A stretch of DNA of 64,000 nt from contig NZ_LSIF01000073.1 in assembly GCF_001556105.1 (NCBI RefSeq), positions 1 through 64,000 on the forward strand, read 5' to 3'. The notes under the pieces were generated by a model. The model was not told where the DNA came from. It ran no database searches and saw only the letters and a program-made list of their open reading frames with translations. Source of the stretch: Pseudoxanthomonas mexicana (lineage in GTDB: Bacteria > Pseudomonadota > Gammaproteobacteria > Xanthomonadales > Xanthomonadaceae). The position numbers were made by a program, and so were the translations under genes. Positions 11,689 through 63,171 of this stretch are shown piece by piece. Position 1 is the first letter of the stretch. Each line of letters begins with the position of its first letter.

Positions 11689-11786
11689 GTGAACTCTCCT
11701 GGCTCTCGATGGGGGCGCGGATGCGCGATCGAGGGCCAGGCGACGGACGTCGTGCGGCCCTCTCAGAAAGCCGTGACGATCCGGTG

Positions 11787-11823: not shown

Positions 11824-11826
11824 GCA

Positions 11827-14196: not shown

Positions 14197-14214
14197 GGTT
14201 CCCGATGGTCTCCC

Positions 14215-33883: not shown

Positions 33884-34633
33884 ATGAGTGAGTTACCCCT
33901 GTATGTCGTCAACCTGCCCGGCTCGACCGATCGCAGGGCTTCCATGGACGCCCAAGCCGCTGCACTCGGGCTATCACTGACGTTCTTCGAGGCCGTGAAC
34001 GGCCGCGTGCGGCATCCCCTCTTCGATCATGTCAACGCGACCAAGCGGCAGGCATGCAAGGGCAGGCCCTTCCGGCCGGGTGAGATCGGTTGCTGGGCCA
34101 GTCACTACCTGCTCTGGCAGCGGTGCGTGGAGAGCGGGCGTCCCATGATCGTGCTGGAAGACGACGTCGCGCTGGCACCCGCCTTGCTGGATGTACTGGG
34201 GGCCCTGCCGTTGCTGCCGGAAGACGTGGGTTATTTCCGGCTGCATGCGGCAGACCGGCCGAGCATGCCGTGGCTGCGCTTCGGCGACTGCGTCCTGCAC
34301 CGCTATTGGCGCAGCCCCCAGTGCACGTTCGGCTATTATCTGGCGCCCGCCGCCGCCGCGCGTTTCCTGCGCCATGCCGATGAGTGGGTCGTGCCGGTGG
34401 ACGACTACATGGACCTGGGTTGGCTGCATGGAGTGCAATGCTTGGGGCTCAAGCCGGGCGTGATGAGCAGCGGCACGTTCGATTCGACCATCCGCGGCGA
34501 TGCCAGCCAGAAACCGAGCGTGGGCGCACTGGGCTGGCTGACCCGGGAAGCGTACCGGGCTTGGTTTGGTTTGCGCCGTTCCTTCCACAACCTGCCGGCA
34601 CGGTTGGGACAGGGAAGCGCGGTCAGGGGGTGA
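33884..34633 (+). CDS. glycosyltransferase family 25 protein
   Basis: A 249-residue protein with the GT25 pattern of LPS galactosyltransferases. It has the N-terminal YVVNLPGSTDRRASM, then GEIGCWASHYLLWQRCVESGRPMIVLEDDVAL with the metal-binding EDD (~residue 90), and a later VDDYMDLGWLHGV. It would add a sugar to the LPS core or O-chain in the cytoplasm. ATG 33884 has a GGGAGG site upstream. It is convergent with the AsnB-type gene, 24 bases away. Confidence 0.87.
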   Translation: MSELPLYVVNLPGSTDRRASMDAQAAALGLSLTFFEAVNGRVRHPLFDHVNATKRQACKGRPFRPGEIGCWASHYLLWQRCVESGRPMIVLEDDVALAPALLDVLGALPLLPEDVGYFRLHAADRPSMPWLRFGDCVLHRYWRSPQCTFGYYLAPAAAARFLRHADEWVVPVDDYMDLGWLHGVQCLGLKPGVMSSGTFDSTIRGDASQKPSVGALGWLTREAYRAWFGLRRSFHNLPARLGQGSAVRG

Positions 34634-49433: not shown

Positions 49434-50153
49434 TTACATCGCCGCCTTGGCCGCACGCGATACCCTCGGTAGCGCATTGAGCTGGACGGCGACGTAGTCC
49501 ATGTGGCCGCCGGCGGCGAGGCGGGCGCGGTCGGGGTCGCGTTGCAGGATGGCGGCGAGCAGGGCGTCGTGCTGTCGGCGCAGCTGCTGCGAGACCGGCG
49601 ACTGCGGCGACAGGCCGGCGAGGCTGACCTGCACGTGGTCGTGCAGCAGCGCCAGCAATGAGGCGATGAGATAGGAGAACACCGGGTTGTGCGTCGCATC
49701 GGCGATGGCGCGATGGAAGGCCACGTCGCTGCGGATCTGCGCCTGCCTATCGCTGCCGTTGTAGGCCGCATCGACGGCGGCGTGCGCCGACCGCAGCCGC
49801 TCGCGATCCCCGTCGTCGTGCCGCAGCGCCGCCAGTTCCGCGGTGCGGCCTTCCAGCATCGCGCGGAACTCCACCAGGTCCGCCTGCAGCATCGGATGGT
49901 TGCGCGCCATGTCCTGCCAGATTTCCGCCATCCGCCGCTCGGTCGCGGCGACGACATACGTGCCGTCGCCCTGCCGGCGCTCCAGCACCCCTCGCGCGAC
50001 CAGCAGGCCGATCGCCTCGCGGGCCGTCGCGCGCGACACCTGCAACTGGTCGGCGAGGGTGCGTTCGGCAGGCAGCCGTCGGCCGGCGACGTAGCGTCCG
50101 TCGGCGATGGCCTGTTCGAGGTGGCGGGTGACCTGGGCGACCTGGGTGGACAT
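49434..50153 (-). CDS. lldR: GntR/FadR-family regulator of lactate utilisation (LldR-like)
   Basis: A 239-residue regulator. The N-terminal winged helix (RRLPAERTLADQLQVSRATAREAIGLLVARGVLERRQGDGTYV, ~residues 25-68) is followed by an FCD effector domain (FRAMLEGRTAELAALR ... SDVAFHRAIADATHNPVFSYLIASL). It is transcribed divergently from lutA, and the space between holds a perfect 15-base palindrome. The pattern matches LldR/LutR proteins that repress lactate genes until lactate binds. ATG 50153 matches the family start. Confidence 0.87.
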   Translation of the reverse strand: MSTQVAQVTRHLEQAIADGRYVAGRRLPAERTLADQLQVSRATAREAIGLLVARGVLERRQGDGTYVVAATERRMAEIWQDMARNHPMLQADLVEFRAMLEGRTAELAALRHDDGDRERLRSAHAAVDAAYNGSDRQAQIRSDVAFHRAIADATHNPVFSYLIASLLALLHDHVQVSLAGLSPQSPVSQQLRRQHDALLAAILQRDPDRARLAAGGHMDYVAVQLNALPRVSRAAKAAM

Positions 50154-50169
50154 GACGGCCTGCGCTCGG

Positions 50170-50184
50170 ATTGGTCGGACCAAT
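50170..50184. promoter_or_regulatory. LldR-type operator palindrome
   Basis: ATTGGTCGGACCAAT is a perfect inverted repeat with one central base. It contains TGGT-N3-ACCA, the pattern of FadR/LldR-family operators. It lies between divergent lldR (start 50153) and lutA (start 50243) and abuts TATA-like hexamers on both strands, so it could control both genes. Confidence 0.75.
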
Positions 50185-50242
50185 ATACCGCCCGCCGGAG
50201 GCCGGCACATGCTCCGACCCGGACAAGACGGACCCGCCCGCC

Positions 50243-51031
50243 ATGCGCTCGCCAGATCCTGCCGGCTCCTCCACCCTTCGGGACGTGTACGTGTTCGCCA
50301 CCTGCGTGGTGGACCTGTTCATGCCCGACGCCGGCCTGGACGCGATCGCCGTGCTGGAACGGATCGGTTGCCGCGTGCACCTGCCCGAGGCGCAGACCTG
50401 CTGCGGACAGCCCGCCTACACCAGCGGCTTTCCGGAGGAGTCGCGCAAGGTCGCGCGTGCGCAGCTCGATCTGTTTCCGCAGCGCTGGCCGATCGTGGTG
50501 CCGTCGGGATCCTGCGCGGGGATGATGCGGCACCACTGGCCGCGGCTGTTCGCGGACGACCCCGTGCTGCTGGCGCGCGTGCGCGATATCGGCGCACGGG
50601 TGGTGGAGTTCTCCGACTTCCTGGCCGCGACCGACCTGCCGATGCCCGCAGCCGCCACCGCCGATCCGGTGTCCGTTTGCCTGCATACCTCGTGCAGTGC
50701 GCGCCGCGAAACCGGCGCATTGGCCAGCGGGCGCCGGTTGCTGGAGGCGCTGCCCGGTGTCGAGCTGAAGATCCAGGCCTACGAATCCGAATGCTGCGGC
50801 TTCGGCGGCACGTTCGCGGTCAAGCAGCCCGACATCTCCGCCGCGATGGCCGGCGACAAGGTGGATGCGCTGGCCGAAAGCGGTTGCGATGCCTTCGTCA
50901 GCGGCGACTGCGGCTGTCTGCTCAACCTCAACGGCTCGCTGGCGCGTCGCGAGGTGCCGCTGCAGGGCCGGCATATCGCCAGCTTCCTGCGCGAGCGCTG
51001 GGGCCTGCCCGCACCGGATGCCGGCGCATGA
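50243..51031 (+). CDS. lutA: lactate utilisation protein A, Fe-S cluster-binding
   Basis: A 262-residue cytoplasmic protein (also LldE) with two CCG domains: TCCGQPAYTSGF near residue 53 and ECCGFGGTFAVKQPD near residue 187. It is a subunit of the LutABC L-lactate oxidase complex that converts lactate to pyruvate. ATG 50243 is the first that gives the hydrophobic YVFATCVVDLF strand close to the N-terminus. The stop overlaps the lutC start by four bases (ATGA). Confidence 0.93.
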   Translation: MRSPDPAGSSTLRDVYVFATCVVDLFMPDAGLDAIAVLERIGCRVHLPEAQTCCGQPAYTSGFPEESRKVARAQLDLFPQRWPIVVPSGSCAGMMRHHWPRLFADDPVLLARVRDIGARVVEFSDFLAATDLPMPAAATADPVSVCLHTSCSARRETGALASGRRLLEALPGVELKIQAYESECCGFGGTFAVKQPDISAAMAGDKVDALAESGCDAFVSGDCGCLLNLNGSLARREVPLQGRHIASFLRERWGLPAPDAGA

Positions 51032-51711
51032 GCCTGCCCGCTGCGTCAGCCCGCGCGCGCTCCGCGATCCTGTCGCGGCTGCGCGCCGCCGCGCCGGTCG
51101 AACTGCCGGCGCCGGATGTCGCCGCGTACTACGCCGATGCCGGCATGCCGTCGTCGGCCGCGATGCGCGAGCGTTTCATCGCGCAGGCGCGCGGCTGGCG
51201 TGCCGAGGTGATCGAGACCGATGCCGCTTCGTGGCCAAGCGCGCTCGCCGCGGTGCTGGCGGACAAGGGCGTGCGCCGGCTGATGGCGGGCCGCAACACG
51301 GCGCTGGTCGACGGCCTGCACGCCGCCACGCAGGCGGTGACGCTGGACTGGTACGACGCGCCCATCGAAACGCTCAAGCCGGTGCTGTTCGACACCGTCG
51401 ATGCCGGCATCACCACCACGCTGGGCGGCATCGCGGAAACCGGCAGCCTGATCCTGTGGCCGGACGTGCGCGAGCCGCGCACGCTGTCGCTGCTGCCGCC
51501 ACTGCACATCGCGGTGCTGCGCGAAGACGACCTGCTGCCCACGCTGTACGCGGCCATGCGGCACCGTCAATGGGCGGCGGGCCTGCCCACCAATGCGCTG
51601 CTGGTCACCGGGCCGTCCAAGACCGCCGACATCCAGCGCCTGCTGGTGTACGGCGCGCACGGTCCGCGCGAACTCGTCATCCTGCTGCTGCGCGCGGAGG
51701 CCACGGCATGA
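51028..51711 (+). CDS. lutC: lactate utilisation protein C (LUD domain)
   Basis: A 227-residue protein consisting of one LUD domain (VLFDTVDAGITTTLGGIAETGSLILWPD, then LPTNALLVTGPSKTADIQRLLVYGAHGPRELVILLL). It is the small subunit of the LutABC complex. It sits between lutA and lutB and overlaps both by four bases. In Bacillus the order is lutA-lutB-lutC, so the order here is changed. Confidence 0.93.
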   Translation: MSLPAASARARSAILSRLRAAAPVELPAPDVAAYYADAGMPSSAAMRERFIAQARGWRAEVIETDAASWPSALAAVLADKGVRRLMAGRNTALVDGLHAATQAVTLDWYDAPIETLKPVLFDTVDAGITTTLGGIAETGSLILWPDVREPRTLSLLPPLHIAVLREDDLLPTLYAAMRHRQWAAGLPTNALLVTGPSKTADIQRLLVYGAHGPRELVILLLRAEATA

Positions 51712-53183
51712 GCGCGGTGCGGCCCGCCGCCGATCCGGTCGCGTTCAAGGACAACGCGCGCCTGGTGCTGGCCGATCCGGTGCTGCGGCGTGGTTTCCGC
51801 GGCGCGATGGACTACCTGGCCGACAAGCGTGCCGCGCAGTTCCCCGAGCACGACGCGTTCGAGCGCCTGCGCTCGCTGGGCGAACACCTGCGCAAGCGTG
51901 CGCTGTCGCGGCTGCCGGACCTGCTGGAACAGCTGGAGCAGGCGCTGCACGCACGCGGCGTGCAGGTGCACTGGGCGGAGGATGCGGCCGATGCGAACCG
52001 CATCTTCCAGGAGATCGCCGCACGCCACGACGCCACGATGATGGTGAAAGGAAAGTCGATGGTCAGCGAGGAGATCGAGCTGAACCACCGTATGCAGGAG
52101 CATGGCATCGCCTGTGTCGAGACCGACATGGGCGAGTACATCCTGCAGCTCGACAACGACCGGCCCAGCCACATCATCATGCCGGCGATCCACAAGACCA
52201 AGGAAGACGTGGCGAAGATCTTCGCCGAGCACATCCCCGGTGCGGGTTACACCGAGGACGTGGACGAACTGATCGCGATCGGCCGCGTGGCGCTGCGCGA
52301 CAAGTTCCGACAGGCGAAGATCGGGGTATCCGGCGTCAACTTCATGGTGGCCGAGACCGGCTCGCTGGCACTGGTGGAGAACGAAGGCAACGGACGGCTG
52401 TCGACGACGGTGCCGGACGTGCACATCGCCATCACCGGCATCGAGAAGGTCATCGAGAAGCTCGAACACGTGCCGCCGCTGTTCACCCTGCTGACGCGCT
52501 CTGCCACCGGCCAGGCCGTGACCACCTACCTCAACGTCATCAGTGGTCCGCGCCGCGAGGGCGAGAAGGACGGGCCGCGCGAAGTGCACCTGGTGCTGCT
52601 GGACAACGGCCGCAGCCAGGCCTTCGCCGAGGAACGCTTCCGCGCGACACTGCAGTGCATCCGCTGCGGCGCGTGCATGAACCACTGTCCCGTCTATGCG
52701 CGCATCGGCGGCCTGTCGTACGGCACAACTTACCCGGGACCGATCGGCGCGATCATCTCGCCGCACCTGCTGGGGCTGGAGTCGACCCGCGATCTGCCGA
52801 CCGCGTCCAGCCTGTGCGGTGCCTGCGGCGACGTCTGCCCGGTGGGCATTCCCATCCCCGAGCTGCTGATGCACCTGCGCGAAGCCGGACGGCACCATCG
52901 TCCCGCAGTGCAGCAGCGCGACGCATTGAAGGGGCAGGGAGCAGTGCGTAGCATCCCGGAGGTCATCGCCTGGAAGGCGTGGCGACTGCTGTATTCCAAC
53001 GGGATGCGCTATCGCCTGTTCACCTGGATCGCCTCCCGGCTGCGCGGCCTCACGCCTGCGCACCAGGGCGGCTGGACCCGATCACGTACGCCGCTGACGC
53101 CCGCGCCGCGCTCGCTGCGCGAGCGATGGCGGACGTCGCGCACCCACAGCATCACCGATACGCACAGCACGCAGGAGAAGTAG
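51708..53183 (+). CDS. lutB: lactate utilisation protein B, iron-sulfur
   Basis: A 491-residue protein. An N-terminal LUD-like domain is followed by two 4Fe-4S motifs (CIRCGACMNHCPVY and CGACGDVCPVGI, residues ~322-385) and a C-terminal domain. It is the iron-sulfur subunit of LutABC. The last ~50 residues are Arg/Thr/Ser-rich and probably not conserved. The operon ends here, since the next gene is 101 bases downstream with its own ribosome site. No lactate permease (lldP) is present in the window. Confidence 0.93.
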   Translation: MSAVRPAADPVAFKDNARLVLADPVLRRGFRGAMDYLADKRAAQFPEHDAFERLRSLGEHLRKRALSRLPDLLEQLEQALHARGVQVHWAEDAADANRIFQEIAARHDATMMVKGKSMVSEEIELNHRMQEHGIACVETDMGEYILQLDNDRPSHIIMPAIHKTKEDVAKIFAEHIPGAGYTEDVDELIAIGRVALRDKFRQAKIGVSGVNFMVAETGSLALVENEGNGRLSTTVPDVHIAITGIEKVIEKLEHVPPLFTLLTRSATGQAVTTYLNVISGPRREGEKDGPREVHLVLLDNGRSQAFAEERFRATLQCIRCGACMNHCPVYARIGGLSYGTTYPGPIGAIISPHLLGLESTRDLPTASSLCGACGDVCPVGIPIPELLMHLREAGRHHRPAVQQRDALKGQGAVRSIPEVIAWKAWRLLYSNGMRYRLFTWIASRLRGLTPAHQGGWTRSRTPLTPAPRSLRERWRTSRTHSITDTHSTQEK

Positions 53184-53284: not shown

Positions 53285-55273
53285 ATGGCAACTGTCCAAC
53301 AGCACGTCGAAACGGTGTTGCGGGTGATCCATTCGGGATCGCCCAGCATCGGAAGCAACGCCAATACCGATCTGATCCACCGCTCGTGGCGCCGCTGCGC
53401 CACCGAGCATGCCCTCGATCCGGCGATGCGCCCGGACGTGCGCATCGAAACCAATTCGCGCCTGCGCGAATGCCGGCAGCAGGTGGAAGAACACCTGCAC
53501 GTCGCGCGCGCCGGCATGGAGCAGCTGTACAAGCACGTCTCCGACCTCGGTTATGTGCTGCTGCTGACCGATGCGGAAGGCGTCACGCTCGACTTCATCG
53601 GCAACGACACCTGGGATGCGCCGCTGCGCCGCGCCGGCCTGGCGCTGGGTGCCAACTGGAACGAGGTCCATGCCGGCACCAACGGCATCGGCACGTGCAT
53701 CGCCGAGCAGTCGACGGTGATCTGCGACCGCGAGGACCACTTCTACATCGGCCATATCGGCCTCAGCTGCACCAGCACGCCGCTGTACGATCCCGATGGC
53801 GCCTTCATGGGCGCGCTGGACGTGTCCGCGCTGTCGTCGCCGGACCGGCGCGAGAGCCTGCACCTGGCGCGCCACCTGACCGTGCTGCACGCGCGGATGA
53901 TCGAGGACGCCAACTTCATCCGCCAGTTCCGCGCGCACTGGATCCTGCGCCTCGGCACGGTCGGACCGCTGGTCGATGTCTGTGGCGAACTGATGCTGGC
54001 GGTGGACCGCGACGGCCGCATCGTCGGCGCCAACAGCGGTGCGCGCCAACAGCTGCGCCTGCTGGAATCGCTGCATACGCGCGACGCCGCGCGCGCACAA
54101 CTGGTCGGCAACCACCTGACCGGCGTGTTCGGCACGCGCATCGACGACATCTGGCGTCTGACCAAGGGCACCTCGCACGATTCGCGCGGCGTGGTGACCA
54201 CGTGGGACGGACAGGGCTACCACGCCTCGATGATCGCGCCGAAGACCGCGCCGCGCCTGCACGTGCCGGACGCCGGTGAAGCGCCGCGCAATCCCGTGCA
54301 GGACAGCGTGCTGTCGCGGCTGTCCGGTGGCGATCCGCGCATGGACCAGCTGCTGGAACGTGCGGCGCGCCTGGTCGACAAGCCGGTCAGCATCTTCCTG
54401 CAGGGCGAGACCGGCACCGGCAAGGAAGTGTTGGCTCGCGCGCTGCACGATGCGAGCCGCCGCGCGGAGCGTTCGTTCGTGGCGGTCAACTGCGCGGCCA
54501 TCCCGGAGTCGCTGATCGAGAGCGAGCTGTTCGGCTACGCACCGGGTACGTTCACCGGTGCGCGCAGCAAGGGCATGAAGGGACTGATCCAGCGTTCCGA
54601 CGGCGGCACGCTGTTCCTCGACGAAATCGGCGATATGCCGCTGCCGTTGCAGACGCGCCTGCTGCGCGTGCTGGCGGAACGAGAGGTGTTGCCGCTGGGT
54701 GCGGACGAACCGGTACGCGTGGATCTCAATGTGGTCGCCGCCTCGCACCGCGACCTGCGCCGGCAGATCGTCGCGGGCACGTTCCGCGAGGACCTGTACT
54801 ACCGGCTGTGCGGCGCCACGCTGGCGTTGCCGGCGCTGCGCGAACGCGGCGACAAGGCGTTCCTGATCGAGCGCATCCTGGAGATGGAAGCGCAGGCGAT
54901 GGGCGTGCGGGCCGAGATCGACCCGCGTGCCGTGGCGGTGCTGCTGCGCCACGAATGGCCCGGCAACATCCGCGAACTGCGCAATGCCCTGTGCTACGCG
55001 CTGTCGATCGCCGATGGCGCCACGGTCCGCGTCGACCACCTGCCCCAGGAGGTCTTCGAGGCCGACGGCGCCGCCGTGCCCGCGACGGCGACGGTCATCC
55101 CGTTCCCGCGCGAGCCTGCGGCCGGCACCGATGAACGCGGCGAGCTGCTGGAGGTGCTGCGCCGCAATCGCTGGAACATCAGCGAGGCCGCGCGCGATCT
55201 GGGCGCATGCCGCGCCACCGTCTACCGGCGGATGAAGCGGCTGGACATCGTGTCGCCGACGCAGACCGACTAG
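53285..55273 (+). CDS. sigma-54-dependent Fis family regulator (AcoR-type)
   Basis: A 662-residue enhancer-binding protein. The N-terminal region contains a GAF-like sensor (~residues 80-190, LTDAEGVTLDFIGNDTWD ... NGIGTCIAEQSTVIC). A central AAA+ domain has Walker A GETGTGKE (~residue 375), the sigma-54-contact loop GTFTGA (usual form GAFTGA), Walker B GGTLFLDEIGD and the R-finger region. A C-terminal Fis-type helix-turn-helix (ELLEVLRRNRWNISEAARDLGACRATVYRRMKRL) closes it. The AcoR type usually controls alcohol, acetoin or aldehyde catabolism. It directly precedes a clear sigma-54 promoter. GGGAGGGG lies before ATG 53285. Confidence 0.92.
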   Translation: MATVQQHVETVLRVIHSGSPSIGSNANTDLIHRSWRRCATEHALDPAMRPDVRIETNSRLRECRQQVEEHLHVARAGMEQLYKHVSDLGYVLLLTDAEGVTLDFIGNDTWDAPLRRAGLALGANWNEVHAGTNGIGTCIAEQSTVICDREDHFYIGHIGLSCTSTPLYDPDGAFMGALDVSALSSPDRRESLHLARHLTVLHARMIEDANFIRQFRAHWILRLGTVGPLVDVCGELMLAVDRDGRIVGANSGARQQLRLLESLHTRDAARAQLVGNHLTGVFGTRIDDIWRLTKGTSHDSRGVVTTWDGQGYHASMIAPKTAPRLHVPDAGEAPRNPVQDSVLSRLSGGDPRMDQLLERAARLVDKPVSIFLQGETGTGKEVLARALHDASRRAERSFVAVNCAAIPESLIESELFGYAPGTFTGARSKGMKGLIQRSDGGTLFLDEIGDMPLPLQTRLLRVLAEREVLPLGADEPVRVDLNVVAASHRDLRRQIVAGTFREDLYYRLCGATLALPALRERGDKAFLIERILEMEAQAMGVRAEIDPRAVAVLLRHEWPGNIRELRNALCYALSIADGATVRVDHLPQEVFEADGAAVPATATVIPFPREPAAGTDERGELLEVLRRNRWNISEAARDLGACRATVYRRMKRLDIVSPTQTD

Positions 55274-55314
55274 CACCGTTCTCCTGCAGTGCGCATGGCG
55301 TGACCATGCGACCC

Positions 55315-55348
55315 GACGGCCCGTCCTTGCGACGGGCCGTCTTCGTTT
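55315..55348 (+). terminator. terminator of the AcoR-type regulator
   Basis: A perfect 11-base stem (55315-55325 with 55331-55341), CTTGC loop, then TTCGTTT. It isolates the regulator from the sigma-54 operon behind it. Confidence 0.75.
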
Positions 55349-55380
55349 GCATCGCCATCGCATCGCCGCGCGCCAGTGGG

Positions 55381-55432
55381 TGCGACACCTGTCGCAGGCG
55401 ACTGCGACAGCTGGTCGCATGCAGGTGTCGCA
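55381..55432 (+). promoter_or_regulatory. tandem upstream activator sites for the AcoR-type regulator
   Basis: Site 1 is TGCGACACCTGTCGCA (55381-55396). Site 2 is TGCGACAGCTGGTCGCA (55403-55419). A half-site GCAGGTGTCGCA ends at 55432. The core TGCGACA/TGTCGCA is repeated in inverted form. The centre is about 135 bases upstream of the -24 element, typical for sigma-54 enhancers. Binding by the adjacent regulator is inferred. Confidence 0.7.
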
Positions 55433-55482
55433 TGTTCATTGCACTGCCGCATGGATTCGACGGCATGCGCCAATGCCATCGG

Positions 55483-55495
55483 CATCAAGTCATTG
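55483..55495 (+). promoter_or_regulatory. IHF-like site between activator sites and promoter
   Basis: CATCAAGTCATTG matches the IHF consensus WATCAANNNNTTR at 12 of 13 positions. IHF bends DNA to bring the enhancer to the sigma-54 polymerase, and it lies where such a site is expected. Confidence 0.55.
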
Positions 55496-55524
55496 ATTCC
55501 ACACGCATGCACGCGCATGGCTCC

Positions 55525-55537
55525 GTTGCACTGCAAC
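55525..55537. repeat. 13-bp palindrome abutting the -24 element
   Basis: GTTGCACTGCAAC is a perfect inverted repeat with one central base, ending two bases before the -24 element. It could be an operator for a second regulator. A chance match is possible. Confidence 0.4.
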
Positions 55538-55538
55538 G

Positions 55539-55554
55539 TGGCACGCGGCTTGCG
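55539..55554 (+). promoter_or_regulatory. sigma-54 (-24/-12) promoter
   Basis: TGGCACGCGGCTTGCG matches TGGCACG-N4-TTGCW closely, with correct spacing between the GG and GC doublets. It lies 115 bases before the first gene of the alcohol-oxidation set and downstream of activator and IHF-like sites. Confidence 0.88.
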
Positions 55555-55669
55555 CTATCTCCTGCGTGGACCTGATGCGCCTGCGCACCGGTGTCCCGGA
55601 ACCACCATCGCCGCGCGGACAACGATCCGCTGACCGGCCGGTCCATTCACTCGGGAGGGAAGCACCACC

Positions 55670-56530
55670 ATGAAGAGAGAGACGATGCCGTCGCTGCCGC
55701 GCCTGTTGCCGCTGGCCCTGTTGCCGCTGCTGGCGATCGCGGGCACGGCCAGCGCGCAGACCACGTTCGACGTGATCGGTCCGCGCGAGTACGAGCTGCC
55801 GGTCGGCTTCGAGCCGTTCAACGTGTTCGTGCAGTACGCCACGTACCAGGACAACGGGCGCATCTTCAATGCCGATGGCGACCGCGTCGACGGCTCGGGC
55901 AGCAAGGCGCTGACCGGCCTGTCCAAGTACGTGCGCTTCTGGACACCGGAATCGAACAAGAAGATCGGCGTGGCCTGGGAAGTGATCGTGCCCGAAGTCT
56001 CCATCCGCAACACGTCCGCCGCGCCGGGCGACCGCTACATCAGCGGCATCGGCGACCCGATGACCGGCTTCGCCATCTGGTACAAGCCCAGCGAGAAGGC
56101 CACGCTCGGCTTCCAGTCGTTCGTGCAGGTGCCGGTGGGCACCGAGCGTGTCAGCGACACCAACTGGAAGAACCTGTCCAGCTTCTTCTGGGACTGGCGC
56201 ATGGGCGACAAGTTCGGCTGGACGGGCGATGCCGGCTTCGTCTGGCAGAGCCACCGCGACAACGGCATCCAGCCCGGCGTGACGCTGCACACCAACAACC
56301 GTTTCGCCTACCGCGCGTCGCAACGGTTGGAACCGTTCCTGGCGCTCGACGCCGAGCGCACGGATTCGAACGATGGCCTGCCGACCGGCTGGGCGATCGA
56401 TGGCGGCGCCGGCCTGATGGTGCACACGTTCGACAACCAGTCGATCACGGTGCGCTATTCGACTTCGCTCGATGGCAAGAACCACAGCGTCAACGACAGC
56501 TTCAACCTGAAATACGCCTACGTGTGGTGA
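55670..56530 (+). CDS. outer-membrane transporter-like protein (Phenol_MetA_deg type)
   Basis: A 286-residue exported protein. The signal peptide ends near ASAQ (residue ~30). The rest has alternating aromatic beta-strand sequence ending in YAYVW, as in outer-membrane proteins of the phenol/MetA-pathway family. Motifs include VQYATYQDNGRIFNADGDRV and IGDPMTGFAIWYKPSEKATLGFQSFVQVPVGTERV. Such proteins probably let alcohols or aromatic compounds through the outer membrane. It is the first gene after the sigma-54 promoter, about 115 bases away. GGGAGGG precedes the ATG at 55670; ATG 55685 is an alternative. Confidence 0.75.
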   Translation: MKRETMPSLPRLLPLALLPLLAIAGTASAQTTFDVIGPREYELPVGFEPFNVFVQYATYQDNGRIFNADGDRVDGSGSKALTGLSKYVRFWTPESNKKIGVAWEVIVPEVSIRNTSAAPGDRYISGIGDPMTGFAIWYKPSEKATLGFQSFVQVPVGTERVSDTNWKNLSSFFWDWRMGDKFGWTGDAGFVWQSHRDNGIQPGVTLHTNNRFAYRASQRLEPFLALDAERTDSNDGLPTGWAIDGGAGLMVHTFDNQSITVRYSTSLDGKNHSVNDSFNLKYAYVW

Positions 56531-56600
56531 TCGCCGCCGGTGGCGCGCCGCTCCCCGTGGACGACGCGCCTGCAAGGACAACACAAGCAAAGGAAACCCC

Positions 56601-58037
56601 ATGACACAGACTTACCAGAACTACATCGATGGCGCGTTCGTCGCCGGCGGCAGTGCGACCATCGACGTGACCAACCCCGCCGACGGTGCATTGCTCGCGT
56701 GCATCCCCGACAGCGACGCCGCGACGGTCGACGCCGCCGTGTCCGCCGCGCGGCGTGCGCAGCCGGCGTGGGAGAAGCTCGCGCCGATCGAACGCGCCGG
56801 CTGCCTGCGCAAGATCTCCGCCAAGCTGCGCGAACATCGCAAGGACCTTGCCGGCGTGATCGTGCGCGAGCAGGGCAAGATCCAGCAGCTGGCGCAGGTC
56901 GAAGTCGACTTCACCGCCGACTACATCGACTACATGGCCGAGTGGGCGCGCCGGCTGGAAGGCGAGATCCTCACCAGCGACCGCGCCAACGAGAACATCT
57001 TCCTGTTCCGCAAGCCGATCGGCGTGGTCGCCGGTATCCTGCCGTGGAACTTCCCGTTCTTCCTGATCGCCCGCAAGCTGGCGCCCGCGCTGATCACCGG
57101 CAACACCATCGTGATCAAGCCGAGCGAAGAGACGCCGATCAACGCCTACGAGTTCGCGAAACTCGTCGCCGAGACCGACCTGCCGAAGGGCGTGTTCAAC
57201 CTCGTTGGCGGCCTCGGGCGCAGCACCGGCCAGGCGCTGGTCGAGCATCCTCAGGTCGACCTGATCACCTTCACCGGCAGCGTCGCCACCGGCAGTCGCA
57301 TCATGCAGACGGCCGGTCGCAATCTGACCCGGGTGAACCTGGAACTCGGCGGCAAGGCACCGGCGATCGTGCTGGCCGATGCCGACCTCGACCTGGCGGC
57401 GGAGGCGATCTACGACTCGCGCGTCATCAACACGGGGCAGGTCTGCAACTGCGCCGAGCGCGTCTATGTCGAACGCGGTGCGCATGAAGCGCTGGTCGAG
57501 CGGCTGGTGAAGCTGTTCCGCGACACGAAGTACGGCGATCCATCCGAGCGCGACGACCTGCAGATGGGGCCGCTGGTGAACCAGGCCGGCCTGGACAAGG
57601 TGTCGGCGGCGGTGGAGCAGGCCAAGCGCGACGGCGCCACCATCGTCACCGGCGGCAAGCCGGCCGACCTGGGCAAGGGCTTCCACTACGAGCCGACGCT
57701 GATCGTCGATGCGCGCGCCGACATGGCGATCATGCGCGAGGAGACGTTCGGCCCGGTGCTGCCGATCCAGGTGGTCGACAGCCTGGACGAGGCCATCGCG
57801 CTGGCCAACGACTCCGAGTACGGACTGACGTCGTCGATCTTCACCCGCGACATCAACGCGGCGATGAAGGCCGCGCGCGAGCTGCGCTTCGGCGAGACCT
57901 ACATCAACCGTGAGCATTTCGAAGCCATGCAGGGCTTCCATGCGGGCCGGCGCAAGTCCGGCATCGGCGGCGCCGACGGCAAGCACGGCCTGCTCGAATT
58001 CACCGAGACCCACGTGGTCTACCTGCAGACGCCCTGA
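56601..58037 (+). CDS. aldA: aldehyde dehydrogenase (AldA, lactaldehyde/glycolaldehyde type)
   Basis: A 478-residue NAD-dependent cytoplasmic enzyme. The catalytic residues are Asn150, Glu248 (NLELGGK) and Cys282 (GQVCNC). It resembles E. coli AldA along its length, including YIDYMAEWARR, ILPWNFPFFLIARK, MGPLVNQAGL and the C-terminal FHAGRRKSGIGGADGKHG. It would oxidise lactaldehyde, glycolaldehyde or simple aldehydes from the PQQ dehydrogenase. Lactate from lactaldehyde would suit the nearby lut genes. It lies 70 bases after the outer-membrane gene. Confidence 0.92.
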   Translation: MTQTYQNYIDGAFVAGGSATIDVTNPADGALLACIPDSDAATVDAAVSAARRAQPAWEKLAPIERAGCLRKISAKLREHRKDLAGVIVREQGKIQQLAQVEVDFTADYIDYMAEWARRLEGEILTSDRANENIFLFRKPIGVVAGILPWNFPFFLIARKLAPALITGNTIVIKPSEETPINAYEFAKLVAETDLPKGVFNLVGGLGRSTGQALVEHPQVDLITFTGSVATGSRIMQTAGRNLTRVNLELGGKAPAIVLADADLDLAAEAIYDSRVINTGQVCNCAERVYVERGAHEALVERLVKLFRDTKYGDPSERDDLQMGPLVNQAGLDKVSAAVEQAKRDGATIVTGGKPADLGKGFHYEPTLIVDARADMAIMREETFGPVLPIQVVDSLDEAIALANDSEYGLTSSIFTRDINAAMKAARELRFGETYINREHFEAMQGFHAGRRKSGIGGADGKHGLLEFTETHVVYLQTP

Positions 58038-58054
58038 AGAAGAGAACAGCCACG

Positions 58055-58687
58055 ATGAGCGAAGCGAAAGAACAGGGCGGTTGCGCGTGCGCGTGCGCCG
58101 GACATCCCGACGACAGCGGACGACGTAGCATGCTGACAGGCGCACTCGCGCTGGCGGCATTGGCGCCGTTGGCCGCCGTCAGCGGTGGTGCGCAGGCGCA
58201 GGCATCCGCCCCGGCTGCCACGCGCAGCCCGAAGCCGGAGCCGGGCGACAAGCTGGCTTTCATGATCGGGCCGAAGGCAGGCAAGGAAGTGAAGCCCGCC
58301 GACATCGAAGTCGGCAAGCCGCCGGTGCTCGCGTATCCGATGGATCCGGCGACCGGCAAGGTGCTGATCTCGAAAGCCAACCTGCTGACCGTGGTGCGGC
58401 TGAAGCCGGCCGACCTGAAACCGACCAGCGCCCGCAACGCCGCCGACGGCATCGTCGCGTTCTCGTCGCTGTGCACGCACTACGGCTGTCCCATCACCAC
58501 GCTGCATCCGAGCCAGACGCAGATCGTCTGCAACTGCCATGGCTCGGTGTTCGACGCGGCCAACCGCGGCGCCGTCACCACGGGACCGGCCACGCGCCGG
58601 CTCGCGATGCTGCCGGTGACGATCAAGGACGGCGCGCTGGTGGTCAGCGGCAAGTTCGACGGACCGCTCGGCCCGCCGACCACCTGA
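58055..58687 (+). CDS. Tat-exported Rieske [2Fe-2S] protein
   Basis: A 210-residue electron-transfer protein. The Rieske ligands are Cys140 and His142 (CTHYGC) and Cys159 and His162 (CNCHGS), with Cys145 and Cys161 placed for the disulfide. A Tat-like SGRRSMLTGALALAALAPL leader lies at residues ~21-40. An unusual Cys-rich GGCACACAG (residues 8-16) precedes it. It is a single-domain Rieske protein with no partner cytochrome b, so its partner is unclear; the neighbouring PQQ dehydrogenase or azurin are candidates. It lies 17 bases behind aldA. Confidence 0.88.
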   Translation: MSEAKEQGGCACACAGHPDDSGRRSMLTGALALAALAPLAAVSGGAQAQASAPAATRSPKPEPGDKLAFMIGPKAGKEVKPADIEVGKPPVLAYPMDPATGKVLISKANLLTVVRLKPADLKPTSARNAADGIVAFSSLCTHYGCPITTLHPSQTQIVCNCHGSVFDAANRGAVTTGPATRRLAMLPVTIKDGALVVSGKFDGPLGPPTT

Positions 58688-58758
58688 CCTGCGTGCCGTT
58701 CCACGTCCACGTTCCCTTTTGCACCACACACACCAACGCTTCACCCGGGAGGAGACCC

Positions 58759-60486
58759 ATGCACCTGAAACTGATCACGGCCGCGCTCGTCGCGTCCCTC
58801 GCTTCGGCCCCGCTCGCCGCGGCCGATTATCAACCCGTCACCGATGCGCGCCTGGCCAAGCAGGAGCCCGCGAACTGGCTGCTGACCAAGGGCAACTACG
58901 CCGGCTGGAGCTACAGCGAACTGGACCAGGTCACCACCGCCAACGTCGCCAAGCTGCGGCCGGTGTGGTCTGCGGCCACCGGCGTGAACTCGGGCCATGA
59001 AGCGCCCGCGATCGTCAACGGCGACTACATGTTCGTGGCCACGCCGCATAACCAGGTGATCGCCTACGACACGCGCACCGGCAAGGTCCGCTGGAAGTTC
59101 GTGCGCGAGGTGCCGGAAGGCCTGGGCGCGCTCCATCGCACCAACCGCGGTGTGTCGCTGTACGGCGACAAGGTGTACGTGGGCAGCATCGACTGCATGC
59201 TCAGCGCGCTGGACGCCAAGACCGGCACGCTGGTGTGGGAAGCGCAGGTCTGCGACTGGGAACAGGACAGCGCCTACATCACGTCCGCGCCGCTGGTGGT
59301 CAAGGGCAAGGTGCTGATCGGCCCGTCCGGTGGCGAGTTCGGCGTGCGCGGCTTCCTCAAGGCGTTCGATGCCGAAACCGGCAAGCTCGCGTGGACGCGC
59401 TACAGCGTGCCGGCGCCGGGCGAGAAAGGCTTCGAGACGTGGCCGCAGGACGGCGAGTGGAAGGACGCGTGGAAGAACGGTGGCGGCACCATGTGGATGC
59501 CGGGCAACTACGACGCCACCAACAACGTCATCTACTGGGGCGTCGGCAACGGCGCGCCGTGGCTGGGCGACCAGCGCCCGGGCGACAACCTCTATCTGGC
59601 CTCGGTGCTTGCGCTGGATCCGGAGAGCGGCGACATCGTCAGCCACTTCCAGTACCACTGGAACGATTCGTGGGACTGGGCGGGCATGAACGCACCGACG
59701 CTGGTCGAGTTCAACCGCAATGGCAAGAAGGTATCGGGCCTGATCAGCGCGCAGCGCAACGGCCGCCTGTACTGGCTGGACCGCGACGACAAGGGCCAGA
59801 TCACCTACAACAAGTCCGAGCCGTACGTGCACAACACGGTGTTCACCAGCATCGATCCGAAGACCGGCCGCCCGACCTACAACGAAGAAGCGAAGCCGGC
59901 GACCGGCAAGACGCGTACCTACTGCCCCAGCCTGTGGGGTGGCAAGGACTGGCCGTACGAGGCGTACAACCCGAAGACGGGCATGCTGTACATCCCGTAC
60001 AACGACAACCATTGCCTCACGCTGACCGGCATGATCCAGCCGCGCATCCCGGGCCAGTGGTCGGCGGGCGTGGACATCAACCGCCTCGACCTGTCGGTGA
60101 AGAAGGGCTTCGACCACATCGGTGGTATCCAGGCGTGGAGCGTGGATGGCGGCAAGGAAGTGTGGCGCGAGAAGTATCCGCACTCGTGGAACTGGGGCTC
60201 GATCATGACCACGGCCGGCGGCGTGCTGTTCGCCGGTGGCACCAACGACCGCATGTTCCGTGCGTATGACGCCAAGACGGGCAAGCTGTTGTGGGAGTTC
60301 CCCACGCCGTCCGGCATCATCGCGCCGCCCAGCACCTTCACCGTCGATGGCAAGCAGTACATCGCCGTGGTGTCCGGCTGGGGCGTGGACGCGCAATGGA
60401 TCCAGGGCAAGATGCACGGCCTGGCGGGATGGGAGAAGGCGGTGCCTGAAGGCGGCTCGGTGTGGGTGTTCGCACTCGGCGACTGA
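58759..60486 (+). CDS. PQQ-dependent alcohol dehydrogenase (quinoprotein, single-domain)
   Basis: A 575-residue periplasmic enzyme with a Sec signal peptide (ending near AAAD, residue ~23) and an eight-bladed propeller with repeated W-motifs (DTRTGKVRWKF, DAKTGTLVWEA, DAETGKLAWTR, DAKTGKLLWEF). PQQ/metal residues seen: Glu193 (GPSGGEFGVRG), Asn264 (GVGNGAPW), Trp246 (TMWMPG) and catalytic Asp306 (SWDWAGMN). The residue two after Asp306 is Ala308, so it is of the calcium rather than the lanthanide type. It lacks the vicinal Cys-Cys pair near the active site; the stretch is GLGALHRTNRG. There is no C-terminal cytochrome c domain. GGGAGGAG precedes ATG 58759. Confidence 0.92.
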   Translation: MHLKLITAALVASLASAPLAAADYQPVTDARLAKQEPANWLLTKGNYAGWSYSELDQVTTANVAKLRPVWSAATGVNSGHEAPAIVNGDYMFVATPHNQVIAYDTRTGKVRWKFVREVPEGLGALHRTNRGVSLYGDKVYVGSIDCMLSALDAKTGTLVWEAQVCDWEQDSAYITSAPLVVKGKVLIGPSGGEFGVRGFLKAFDAETGKLAWTRYSVPAPGEKGFETWPQDGEWKDAWKNGGGTMWMPGNYDATNNVIYWGVGNGAPWLGDQRPGDNLYLASVLALDPESGDIVSHFQYHWNDSWDWAGMNAPTLVEFNRNGKKVSGLISAQRNGRLYWLDRDDKGQITYNKSEPYVHNTVFTSIDPKTGRPTYNEEAKPATGKTRTYCPSLWGGKDWPYEAYNPKTGMLYIPYNDNHCLTLTGMIQPRIPGQWSAGVDINRLDLSVKKGFDHIGGIQAWSVDGGKEVWREKYPHSWNWGSIMTTAGGVLFAGGTNDRMFRAYDAKTGKLLWEFPTPSGIIAPPSTFTVDGKQYIAVVSGWGVDAQWIQGKMHGLAGWEKAVPEGGSVWVFALGD

Positions 60487-60569
60487 TCCACGTCTTCGCT
60501 CTCTCTGCCTGCGCGGCCCCGGTGACGGGGCAGCGCAGCGCAGTCACCACGATTCACAGGAACTCCCCC

Positions 60570-61028
60570 ATGCCATCGAAATCCGTACTTTCCTCTCTCG
60601 TCGTGGCCGTGCTTGCGTTGCTTCCTTTGCACGCGGCGGCCAAGACCTGCAACGTCGCCATCGGCAGCAACGATGCGATGCAGTTCGACACGCAGGAGAT
60701 CCGCATCGCCGCCGACTGCACGCAGGTGAAACTGACGCTGCGGCATACTGGCGCCCTTCCCGCCGAGGTGATGGGCCACAACTGGGTGTTGACGACCACG
60801 GCAAACCTGGAGGCGCTCGCGACGGCCGCCGGAAAACTTCCCGCCAGCAGCGATCACGTGCCCAAGGGCGACGCACGCGTGCTGGCGGCCAGCAAGGTGG
60901 TGGGCGGTGGACAGTCGACCACCTTCACCTTCTCCTCGTCGGTGCTACGCAAGGGTGGCGACTACACGTTCTTCTGCTCGGTGCCGGGCCATTGGATGAT
61001 GATGAAAGGCAAGTTGGTGTTCGGATGA
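60570..61028 (+). CDS. azurin
   Basis: A 152-residue periplasmic blue-copper electron carrier. The signal peptide is followed by the mature start near residue 25. The copper ligands are His70 (GHNWV), Cys136, His141 and Met145 (CSVPGHWMMM). The disulfide pair is Cys27 and Cys50. It lies between the PQQ dehydrogenase and the TonB receptor. No cytochrome c gene is present, so azurin is a good candidate electron acceptor, as for some quinoprotein systems. Confidence 0.92.
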   Translation: MPSKSVLSSLVVAVLALLPLHAAAKTCNVAIGSNDAMQFDTQEIRIAADCTQVKLTLRHTGALPAEVMGHNWVLTTTANLEALATAAGKLPASSDHVPKGDARVLAASKVVGGGQSTTFTFSSSVLRKGGDYTFFCSVPGHWMMMKGKLVFG

Positions 61029-61035
61029 TCCAGGC

Positions 61036-63171
61036 ATGCGCATGAGATCGCGCGTGTCGCCGCTGCTGGGCGCCGTGCTGTTGGCGCCGGGCGCGATCGC
61101 CGCGCCTGCGGGCGAGCCGGCGGCGCCGATGGAAACGCTGGACCGCGTGGTCGTGACTGCGACGCGGCTGGAGACGGTGACCGCCTTCGACGCACCGGCA
61201 TCGACCAGCGTGGTCGCGCTCGGCGATGGTGGTGCGCGTCCTCAGGCGGCGTTGTCGGAAGTCCTTGACGGGATTCCCGGCCTGCTGGCGCGCGAGCGGC
61301 AGAACCTCGCGCAGGACACGCAGCTGTCGATCCGCGGCTTCGGTGCGCGTTCGACGTTCGGCGTGCGCGGCCTGCGGCTGTACGCCGACGGCGTGCCGGC
61401 GACGATGCCGGACGGGCAGGGGCAGGTCTCGCACGTCACCATGCTCGCGGCGGATCGCGTCGAAGTGCTGCGCGGTCCGTTCTCGGCGCTGCACGGCAAC
61501 TCGTCCGGCGGCGTGATCCAGGTCTGGAGCGACATCCCCGACGAGGGGCACGAAGCGCGCGTGCAGGCCAGCGTGGCCAGCCACGACAGCACCGTCATCG
61601 GCGCACGCCTGCGCGGTGCGGGCGAGGTACTGGGCTACAGCGTGGCGGCGTCCGTGCTGGATACGCAGGGCTATCGTGACCACAGTGCGGCGCGGCGCGA
61701 GTCGCTGAACGCCAAGCTGCGTTTCCGTCCCGGTGCCGGCACGCTGGATCTGTTGCTCAATCATTTCAATGCGCCCGATGCGAAGGATCCGCTGGGTCTG
61801 ACGCGCATGCAGGCGTGGACGGATCCGAGCCAGGCATCGCCGGTCGCGACCCAGTACGACACGCGCAAGTCGGTCCGCCAGGACCAGCTGGGTGTTGTCT
61901 ACGAATGGCCCTTCGCGGAAGGCCATCGCCTGCGCGCGATGGCCTATGGCGGACGACGCGAAGTGGAGCAGTACCTGGCGCTGCCGATCGCGGCACAGGC
62001 GAACCGGCTGAACTCCGGTGGCGTGATTGATCTGGACAACGACTACGGCGGCGCCGACCTGCGCTGGTCGTGGGCCGGCGATCTCGCCGGGCGGCCGTTC
62101 GAGCTGAGTGCAGGCGCCAATGCGGATCGCCAGCGCCAGCATCGCCGCGGCTACGAGAACTTCGTCGGCACGACCCTGGGGGTGCGCGGCGCGCTGCGCC
62201 GCGACGAGCGCAACCAGGTGTGGAACGTGGACCAGTATGCGCAGGCGTGGTGGCGTGTCGCGCCGCGCTGGTCGCTGCTGATGGGCGCGCGGCACAGCCG
62301 GGTCGGTTTCCGCTCGGACGACGACTACATCGCGACCGGCAATCCCGACGACAGCGGTCGCGTGGTCTACGAGCGCACGACGCCGGTGGCCGGCGTCGTG
62401 CTCACGCCGGCGGACGCGTGGCGTGTGTATGCGTCGGTCGGACGCGGCTTCGAAACGCCGACCTTCAACGAGGTCGGCTACCGCGCGGACGGTGGCGCCG
62501 GACTGGCGTTCGACCTGCGACCGGCGACCACGCGCAATGCCGAGCTGGGCATGAAGTGGCGCGGTGAGCACGGCGCGCGCGTCGAAGCCGCGCTGTTCCG
62601 CGCCGATACCGACGACGAACTGGCGGTCGCGCGCAATGTCGGCGGCCGCAGCAGCTTCCGCAATGTCGGCGCCGCCCGCCGGCAGGGTGTGGAGATGCAG
62701 GCGGACCTGCCGTTGTCGGAAGCCTGGCAACTTCAAGCCGCCTATACCTGGCTGGATGCGACCTTCCGCGACAGCTTCCCGATCTGTACGGCGAGCGGTT
62801 GCACCTCGCCCGTCGTGCAGGTGGCGGCTGGCACGCGCATTCCCGGCGTCGCACGGCAGCAGGCGTCGTTGCGGCTACGCTGGCAGGGCAAACAGTGGAA
62901 TGCTGCGGCGCAGCTGCTGGGCGTCGGCGATGTCACGGTGAACGACACCGGCAGCGAACGCGCACCTGGCTACGGCCTGCTCAACCTCGAAGTGGTGCGC
63001 GACTGGTCGGCGGGCAGCGGGCGCCTGCAGGGCTTCGCGCGCATCGACAACGCGCTGGACCGCTTCCACATCGGCTCCGTCATCGTCAACGAAGGCAACG
63101 GGCGCTTCTACGAGCCCGGCGCGGACCGCACGTTCACCGTCGGCCTGCGCTGGCTGTGGGCGGACGGCTGA
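61036..63171 (+). CDS. TonB-dependent receptor of the YncD/PqqU type (PQQ uptake)
   Basis: A 711-residue outer-membrane receptor. A signal peptide is followed by the TonB box region (DRVVVTATR), plug (QDTQLSIRGFGARSTFGVRG, LYADGVPATMPDGQGQ, LRGPFSALHGNSSGG) and barrel ending near LRWLWADG. It matches E. coli YncD/PqqU motif for motif (GYRDHS, QYDTRK, GRGFETPT, TDTDDE, GSVIVNEGNGRFYEPG). YncD has been reported to be the PQQ receptor in E. coli. A TonB receptor for PQQ next to a PQQ enzyme makes functional sense. The ATG lies seven bases past the azurin stop. Confidence 0.85.
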   Translation: MRMRSRVSPLLGAVLLAPGAIAAPAGEPAAPMETLDRVVVTATRLETVTAFDAPASTSVVALGDGGARPQAALSEVLDGIPGLLARERQNLAQDTQLSIRGFGARSTFGVRGLRLYADGVPATMPDGQGQVSHVTMLAADRVEVLRGPFSALHGNSSGGVIQVWSDIPDEGHEARVQASVASHDSTVIGARLRGAGEVLGYSVAASVLDTQGYRDHSAARRESLNAKLRFRPGAGTLDLLLNHFNAPDAKDPLGLTRMQAWTDPSQASPVATQYDTRKSVRQDQLGVVYEWPFAEGHRLRAMAYGGRREVEQYLALPIAAQANRLNSGGVIDLDNDYGGADLRWSWAGDLAGRPFELSAGANADRQRQHRRGYENFVGTTLGVRGALRRDERNQVWNVDQYAQAWWRVAPRWSLLMGARHSRVGFRSDDDYIATGNPDDSGRVVYERTTPVAGVVLTPADAWRVYASVGRGFETPTFNEVGYRADGGAGLAFDLRPATTRNAELGMKWRGEHGARVEAALFRADTDDELAVARNVGGRSSFRNVGAARRQGVEMQADLPLSEAWQLQAAYTWLDATFRDSFPICTASGCTSPVVQVAAGTRIPGVARQQASLRLRWQGKQWNAAAQLLGVGDVTVNDTGSERAPGYGLLNLEVVRDWSAGSGRLQGFARIDNALDRFHIGSVIVNEGNGRFYEPGADRTFTVGLRWLWADG

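Follow-up and report, generated by a model that had tools for sequence, protein, structure and literature searches.

A Rieske protein gene paired with a disulphide-less PQQ-dehydrogenase gene in a predicted sigma-54-controlled, PqqU-encoding operon of Pseudoxanthomonas mexicana

In a 64,000-nucleotide stretch of Pseudoxanthomonas mexicana DNA (contig NZ_LSIF01000073.1; the whole stretch is referred to as the window), the gene for a dehydrogenase dependent on pyrroloquinoline quinone (PQQ) stands directly behind the gene for a Rieske [2Fe-2S] protein, a pairing found to be specific to one monophyletic group of such enzymes. The pair belongs to a run of seven genes (53285..63171) encoding an activator, an outer-membrane protein, an AldA-type aldehyde dehydrogenase, the Rieske protein, the PQQ-dehydrogenase, an azurin and a PqqU-like receptor. 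As an initial annotation of this DNA had described, the seven are read in one direction; all are open, lie on the plus strand, and are each matched by profiles or structures. That observation is confirmed as a whole, and the interpretation attached to it (sigma-54/activator control, an own PQQ receptor and dependence on outside PQQ) is supported, having passed sequence-level tests able to fail on the promoter and activator site, the PQQ contacts, and the absence of pqqB, pqqC and pqqE. The annotation overlooked a lut operon just upstream and the Rieske/PQQ-dehydrogenase pair as the conserved core; this pairing is a more surprising finding than the earlier reading, which stands. The balance tips slightly towards a broader proposal, in which a widespread quinoprotein class that has lost its disulphide, and that is predicted to comprise calcium and lanthanide enzymes across several phyla, passes electrons to a dedicated Rieske protein instead of cytochrome c, and in which some Pseudoxanthomonas and Tahibacter operons add azurin and a PQQ importer, giving a PQQ-auxotrophic alcohol oxidiser. 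No paper pairing a Rieske protein with a PQQ-dehydrogenase was found in the literature searched, which was thin in subscription papers, and no such pairing appears in the parts consulted of PMC11102522, PMC4013037, PMC11996626, PMC5023235 and PMC10715153.

The Rieske gene (58055..58687, plus strand; PF00355), whose product is the proposed electron acceptor, encodes a twin-arginine N-terminus (GRRSML) and the cluster motif CTHYGC...CNCHGS. It is separated from the dehydrogenase gene (58759..60486, plus strand) by 68 bp counted from the frame start, or 71 from the dehydrogenase Met. Among the related loci L001-L080, the best 80 of 411 qualifying stretches picked with two peptide patterns, a Rieske gene was found in 80/80 by profile and in 79/80 by a stricter tblastn. 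One of these patterns includes the His of the LHxTNRG motif that characterizes the group, so that the lack of Cys-Cys in L001-L080 is partly built in; for this reason, a further test was run without the pattern in 22 genomes chosen as carriers of the group. There, a Rieske gene was found within about 1.5 kb of 24 of the 26 group members, compared with none of 104 other PQQ-dehydrogenases, of which 93 have a vicinal Cys-Cys and 11 do not. With the partial row G008:C443 set aside, the count takes in 130 of the 131 matches to TIGR03075 at E up to 1e-100; group members were defined by an LHxT[NS]RG or FHxTNRG motif and are 49-99% identical to the window enzyme. The two members lacking a Rieske match are L279, a copy in tandem with L295, which does have one, and L257, a gene lying 254 bases from the start of its contig. 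Over 82 dehydrogenase rows, the nearest same-strand Rieske frame was directly upstream in 71 (within ~200 bp) and downstream within 825 bp in 10, the one remaining row being the second copy of a tandem pair, these distances being rough and measured from reading-frame ends. The missing Cys-Cys was also considered by itself as the cause of the Rieske link, and this was rejected, given that the 11 other Cys-Cys-less enzymes (27-35% identity) have no Rieske gene.

The Rieske proteins of the group keep the cluster motif CTHxGC...CxCHGS, and a simple pattern recognized a twin-arginine N-terminus in 64 of 80 sequences (the window and 79 loci). The nearest solved relatives of the window protein are the Thermus bc1 Rieske protein (114 bits), QcrA-type bc1 subunits (at most 66 bits) and AioB (41 bits), and its scores for bc1-type Rieske subunits lie under the cut-offs (31.7 of 97.4 for TIGR01416; 102.7 of 275 for QcrA). 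A Cys-rich segment, GGCACACAGH, precedes the twin-arginine motif in the window protein, at positions that are not conserved in the group.

The dehydrogenase itself belongs to the methanol/ethanol family, with 518.8 bits for TIGR03075 (cut-off 480.05). It is 97-99% identical to the enzymes of P. japonensis DSM 17109 (L001) and of strains PXM01 (L002), PXM02 (L003) and Root630 (L024). Its best solved match is PedH (6zcw; TM 0.83-0.85, 34% identity), a structure comparison that confirmed only the fold. Queries began at 58756, one codon early, so that the residue numbers given here exceed those counted from the Met by one. Alignment with PedH and ADH-IIB showed that the PQQ pocket is kept and that Ala-Leu-His stands where ADH-IIB has Cys-Cys-Asp. 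Arg131, Glu194, Trp247, Asn265, Asp307 and Arg334 are invariant in 83/83 group rows (82 distinct, as this alignment includes the window twice), and His127 is present in 82/83, with Asn in L032. His127 is likewise invariant in 28 rows of a further alignment (A1) drawn from protein-search matches independently of the retrieval pattern. In place of the vicinal Cys-Cys of the classical quinoprotein alcohol and methanol dehydrogenases (ExaA, MxaF, XoxF), the predicted protein and its group carry LHxT[NS]RG; a vicinal Cys-Cys occurs in 0/82 distinct group members, the window included, compared with 37/40 other PQQ-dehydrogenases and, as noted above, most of a wider set (93/104). In a FastTree tree of 123 rows the group was monophyletic, with no intruder and a support of 0.999. 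It comprises Proteobacteria plus metagenome-assembled genomes (MAGs) labelled Terriglobia, Acidobacteria and Rokubacteria. The metal-type position is Ala (calcium-type) in 39 and Asp (lanthanide-type) in 44 of 83 rows. The window enzyme has WDWA, of the calcium type, and lacks the extra Asp that lanthanide-type alcohol dehydrogenases have two positions behind the catalytic Asp (WDxD). Many distant members among L034-L080, from Bradyrhizobium, Acetobacteraceae, and Rokubacteria and Terriglobia MAGs, carry WDWD, and the group is therefore predicted to hold lanthanide as well as calcium enzymes.

Compared with ExaA, PedE, PedH and the MxaF-XoxF enzymes (TIGR03075), the window enzyme is thus alike in its PQQ beta-propeller fold and its PQQ and metal residues, whereas its group has LHxT[NS]RG without a vicinal Cys-Cys and a Rieske gene alongside, and the seven-gene set has no cytochrome c gene. 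How electrons leave PQQ enzymes, and what purpose the vicinal disulphide serves, is an old question in quinoprotein biochemistry; in the classical enzymes the disulphide is thought to serve electron exit. A natural disulphide-less group with a Rieske gene offers a direct test of this question and, if the proposal is true, a new electron route for calcium and lanthanide enzymes alike. Arsenite oxidase (AioBA) was used as a working analogy: it too works in the periplasm, has a Rieske small subunit as partner and relies on a carrier of the azurin type, but its catalytic subunit contains molybdenum, not PQQ, and the window Rieske protein is closer to the Thermus bc1 protein than to AioB.

The sequence upstream of the operon points to control by sigma-54 and an activator. 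The activator gene (53285..55273, plus strand) encodes a Sigma54_activat domain (211 bits), the AAA+ loop variant GTFTGA and a Fis-type HTH (HTH_8), and is presumably of the AcoR type. Behind it, the terminator proposed in the initial annotation was found at 55315..55341 (plus strand) as an 11-bp stem that recurs in close relatives; because the scan gave 3 terminator-like sites compared with 5.5 expected in shuffles, the terminator count alone is not evidence. A palindromic candidate activator site, TGCGACAccTGTCGCA, follows at 55381..55396, with two more half sites at 55403 and 55426, and a sigma-54 -24/-12 element, TGGCACgcggcTTGC, lies 158 bp from it at 55539..55553 (plus strand). The palindrome TGCGACA-CC-TGTCGCA occurs once in the window and in none of 100 shuffles; it was derived by locus comparison. 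TGGCACgcggcTTGC is one of two perfect sigma-54 matches in the 64 kb (0.27 expected). The other, at 34173-34187 within a glycosyltransferase-25-type gene and with no palindrome nearby, is probably a chance match, and the promoter string was accordingly rejected as sufficient evidence; the signal that points away from chance is the palindrome plus its spacing.

Conservation of these elements was evaluated in related loci. A sigma-54 site matching 9 or 10 of 10 consensus positions precedes the first operon gene in 16 of 17 loci inspected, L004 alone lacking one. TGCGACA-N2-TGTCGCA was found in 13 of 83 sequences (~1.6 Mb; L001-L080, the window, L206 and L309), or 12/82 without L309, in each case as a single copy 133-167 bp upstream of the sigma-54 element (137 bp by coordinates in L309). 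The carriers are Pseudoxanthomonas, Tahibacter, Dokdonella, Steroidobacter, Nevskia, a gammaproteobacterial MAG, a Lysobacteraceae and the genome G092. Individual inspection of loci showed the promoter without the palindrome in Azoarcus (L018), Zoogloea (L021) and Hydrocarboniphaga (L011). Their activators are 41-57% identical to that of the window, while L007 and L009 carry the site at 53-55% identity, and the range of the palindrome is therefore not set by overall identity alone. With activator, -24/-12 element and upstream site at conserved spacing all present, the sigma-54 promoter of the initial annotation is borne out, the activator would be expected to bind the palindrome, and regulation of the operon by sigma-54 and this activator is considered very probable. 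The arrangement resembles AcoR-type sigma-54 catabolic operons in its AAA+ activator, -24/-12 promoter and upstream palindrome, and differs in that a quinoprotein operon is controlled. The conserved activator site and promoter lend themselves to immediate reporter constructs.

The last two genes of the run encode an azurin and a TonB-dependent receptor. The azurin (60570..61028, plus strand) scores 157.3 bits for TIGR02695 (cut-off 105.1), with the GHN and FFCSxPGHW..M segments aligned, in which we take the copper-binding residues to lie; azurin is an established type of electron carrier. The receptor (61036..63171, plus strand) reaches 656.4 bits for NF041535, under the cut-off of 1200 and far above the next model (136.5). 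That cut-off was reached in the E. coli control and in 0/38 Pseudoxanthomonas genomes. Aligned with E. coli PqqU (YncD), the receptor shares 279 of 670 residues. In the parts consulted of a study on PqqU, Tyr99, Lys274, Arg304, Arg365 and Arg536 are among the residues important for import, the signature is Tyr/Phe/Trp99, Arg304 and Arg365 with Phe accepted at 99, PQQ import as such is already established, and the gene linkage discussed is that to PQQ biosynthesis genes and does not extend to a dehydrogenase operon (PMC12124388). By this published signature, the window receptor keeps 5/5 tested contacts, as Phe108 (in place of Tyr99), Lys278, Arg308, Arg370 and Arg538 (PMC12124388). It differs from E. 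coli PqqU in its setting, its gene following that of azurin after 7 bp within a catabolic operon. All 50 receptor rows aligned from related loci, representing 43 distinct genes, keep the same F-K-R-R-R set; of the 53 loci entered, L018, L021 and L022 have no receptor match. The own PQQ receptor claimed for the module thus has both the signature and the contacts, and import of PQQ by this protein appears highly probable from its sequence.

The corresponding claim of dependence on outside PQQ was followed in relatives' genomes, on which all genome-level statements rest. In the window, no pqq gene occurs among the proteins scanned, which do not include every open reading frame, in line with the initial annotation. 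In seven genomes, comprising the four closest Pseudoxanthomonas, two Dokdonella and one Tahibacter, pqqB, pqqC and pqqE were over cut-off in 0/7 (pqqA, pqqD and pqqF were not searched). Among 27 genomes carrying the group, L005's genome not being one of them, pqqC was over cut-off in 20 and pqqB in 19; both are missing in the same seven genomes, and pqqB is also missing in a Rhodanobacter MAG (G012). Of 14 genomes searched for pqqE, seven had it over cut-off and the other seven were those without pqqB and pqqC; it was over cut-off in 0/38 Pseudoxanthomonas genomes, whose completeness is not stated; sub-cut-off pqqE matches of at most 69 bits occur in 37 of these 38 and sub-cut-off matches also in 14/14 control genomes. 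The absence of pqqB, pqqC and pqqE in relatives makes dependence on outside PQQ likely, as had been proposed; lack of own PQQ synthesis is held with good, slightly lower, confidence than import, and the window strain would accordingly be a PQQ auxotroph.

PqqU is present in 7/7 genomes without pqqB, pqqC and pqqE and in 11 of the other 20. An over-cut-off TIGR03075 enzyme is encoded in 11 of the 38 Pseudoxanthomonas genomes, and in all 11 a PqqU gene is found no more than 7 kb from one, the enzyme in question being of the Cys-Cys type in seven; this proximity is independent evidence that the receptor serves PQQ enzymes. One genome (G021) has its receptor gene next to pqqB, pqqC and pqqE. Among 398 genomes sampled from the order, 34 have pqqC and 5 this dehydrogenase (E up to 1e-150). 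In several Pseudoxanthomonas loci (L128-L133, L099, L100, L104, L107, L108 and L112), a Cys-Cys-type dehydrogenase has a different TonB receptor, sharing 26-30% identity with PqqU, at its side and a PqqU 2-5 kb away; a lanthanide or a second cofactor might be the cargo of the different receptor.

In addition to the redox and import genes, the operon encodes a predicted entry protein and an aldehyde dehydrogenase. The outer-membrane protein (55670..56530, plus strand) has no Pfam match of its own; many of its homologues bear PF13557. Its model (pLDDT 86.7) is a beta-barrel of the COG4313/MetA-pathway channel type, nearest to the COG4313 channel 4rl8 of Pseudomonas putida F1 (TM 0.75-0.80) but only 15% identical to it in sequence, and the modelled fold makes substrate entry its probable role. 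AldA (56601..58037, plus strand) is of the lactaldehyde/glycolaldehyde dehydrogenase type, with 760.7 bits for PRK10090 (cut-off 500) and 649.6 bits with E. coli lactaldehyde dehydrogenase AldA (2opx). Because AldA-type enzymes are NAD-linked and cytoplasmic, the module described as periplasmic in the initial annotation is so only in part, the AldA step falling outside. From the outer-membrane protein gene through aldA, rieske, dehydrogenase and azurin to the receptor, the intergenic gaps are 70, 17, 68, 83 and 7 bp, and 3' of the receptor the next long gene-like frame (from 63184) lies on the opposite strand. Within the flanks covered, several of which end at contig ends, the near loci L001-L033 carry AldA in 20/33, the outer-membrane protein in 21, the activator in 22, LutB in 15 and PqqU in 9; the distant loci L034-L080 carry AldA in 11/47.

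Upstream, LutB/LldF, an iron-sulphur protein of L-lactate oxidation, is encoded at 51708..53183 (plus strand; TIGR00273 473.0 bits, cut-off 444.8; LutB_C domain matched in Pfam). It is preceded by a LutA-like subunit (50171..51031, plus strand), whose start is uncertain and whose frame overlaps the gene before it; this protein aligns with the C-terminal part of LdhH and with GlcF-type proteins, all under cut-off, and its gene is linked with LutB in relatives. Between them lies a gene (51037..51711, plus strand, start approximate) without an NCBIfam match, presumably LutC by its position, which is kept in relatives. Divergent from the lut genes, a GntR/FCD regulator (49434..50210, minus strand) exceeds the Pfam cut-offs for both domains and is PdhR/LldR/GlcC-like, with 158.7 bits for PdhR and 152.9 for LldR, each under its equivalog cut-off.

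Altogether, the observed gene content, promoter and activator-site conservation, PQQ contacts, missing pqqB, pqqC and pqqE in relatives, and group-specific Rieske pairing were combined into a proposed mechanism, of which we infer the binding of the activator, the electron route, the substrate and the auxotrophy of this strain. The AcoR-type activator would bind TGCGACA-N2-TGTCGCA and, with sigma-54 RNA polymerase, turn on the genes from the outer-membrane protein to pqqU. The COG4313-type barrel would let the substrate into the periplasm, where the calcium-type PQQ-dehydrogenase would turn it into the aldehyde. Electrons would pass from the dehydrogenase to the dedicated Rieske protein, which would replace the cytochrome c of the classical enzymes, and then through azurin to a terminal oxidase. 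In the cytoplasm, AldA would oxidize lactaldehyde to lactate, and the neighbouring Lut proteins lactate to pyruvate. PQQ, not made by the cell, would be brought in by PqqU; with PqqU in the same operon, importer synthesis would be coupled to enzyme synthesis. An importer under the same substrate switch would tie a shared cofactor to one catabolic pathway and would make the Pseudoxanthomonas operon a clean system for measuring cofactor cross-feeding. The full explanation, in which the module is catabolic, is induced by its substrate and serves a short 1,2-diol, with 1,2-propanediol the likeliest, is given a little more credence than doubt.

The substrate is the least secure part, and here the case for 1,2-propanediol must be weighed against a module of the same build for another compound, such as ethylene glycol (through glycolaldehyde to glycolate), acetol/methylglyoxal, ethanol or another short alcohol, with lut an independent neighbour. 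AldA together with the neighbouring lut genes points to a path from 1,2-propanediol through lactaldehyde and lactate to pyruvate. In 15 of the 33 near loci LutB lies within 10 kb, its orientation to the Rieske/dehydrogenase pair being the same in some and opposite in others, and downstream of the pair in Hyphomicrobium L013 come a molybdenum-oxidoreductase-like gene (every model under cut-off; homologues in L014, L015 and L020) and aceE, for pyruvate dehydrogenase E1 (1466 bits, cut-off 859.9; homologues in L014, L015 and L023). As 1,2-propanediol fits best with a chain from alcohol through aldehyde, lactate and pyruvate to acetyl-CoA, it is the substrate put forward, at even odds. Several observations weigh against this reading. 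LutB is found in 0/47 distant loci, and 18/33 near loci have none in the flank covered, several of these being cut by contig ends; Azoarcus and Zoogloea loci (L018, L019, L021 and L022) have activator, outer-membrane protein, AldA, Rieske protein and dehydrogenase and no lut match; and AldA-type enzymes also accept glycolaldehyde and methylglyoxal. A fifth Pseudoxanthomonas genome (L309; G055:C6:349000-368000) has activator, palindrome, promoter, outer-membrane protein, AldA, Rieske protein and dehydrogenase without an azurin, PqqU or lut match in the 19 kb around the module. Regarding the cofactor, PqqU occurs at 640 bits or more in 34/38 Pseudoxanthomonas genomes and the over-cut-off TIGR03075 enzyme in 11, and PqqU must therefore serve more than this operon. 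Furthermore, G092 (locus L206), of the same order, carries pqqC and pqqE in addition to the module, its PqqU being unlinked, and the Rhodanobacter MAG G012 combines an enzyme-adjacent PqqU with pqqC and pqqE close to a contig end, so that receptor and PQQ synthesis are not mutually exclusive. The adjacent receptor was rejected on the basis of G012 as a strict mark of auxotrophy; against such a mark stand also L007-L009, where the receptor lies beside the module and the two genomes searched (G006 and G007) have pqqB and pqqC, and both Dokdonella genomes, which lack pqqB, pqqC and pqqE and carry PqqU elsewhere. Among the window proteins scanned with NCBIfam, no glycolate-oxidase equivalog was over cut-off, which speaks against the rival reading, and another substrate for the same module is judged somewhat less probable than not.

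The electron route raises a similar choice. Acceptance of electrons from reduced PQQ by the Rieske protein is considered fairly probable. Were the Rieske role instead structural, regulatory or in assembly, electrons would pass straight to azurin or cytochrome c; azurin is co-encoded in the window, and quinohaemoprotein dehydrogenases are known to use it. However, azurin is present in just 5/80 loci (four Pseudoxanthomonas, one Tahibacter), and azurin and receptor together stand beside the enzyme in 5/80, compared with 80/80 for the Rieske gene, and the cluster ligands are kept as in a redox protein. Azurin was thus rejected as the conserved acceptor and is a local addition, and direct transfer past the Rieske protein seems unlikely. 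The rarity of azurin and receptor, missing from most related loci and from L309, might also suggest chance neighbours outside the transcript, and in L118 (G047) an azurin-like gene, 46% identical, lies directly beside PqqU in a genome without an over-cut-off TIGR03075 enzyme, so that azurin and PqqU may form a separate unit. Nevertheless, the two genes are 7 bp apart, the terminator scan found no site from dehydrogenase to receptor, and Tahibacter L006 has the same order, with azurin 57% and receptor 64% identical, which leaves chance neighbours a very small probability. An equally slight chance is given to the dehydrogenase being an empty quinoprotein that binds no PQQ, with the receptor carrying something else. 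Its second-best NCBIfam model is the acido-empty-quinoprotein group A, at 327.1 bits under a cut-off of 650, and the vicinal disulphide is missing, but TIGR03075 is over its cut-off, the PQQ- and metal-site residues are invariant in the group, the receptor retains the PQQ signature, and both pqqB and pqqC are over cut-off in 19 of the 27 genomes carrying the group.

Two further observations concern spacing and the rest of the window. In L018, L021, L071 and L072, about 550-600 bp separate the outer-membrane protein gene from aldA, compared with 70 bp in the window, and a small gene may sit there. Elsewhere in the window, positions 7364-15447 carry genes for two TonB-dependent receptors, an S9 peptidase and a regulator of the FecR type, none of them connected with the alcohol-oxidation module.

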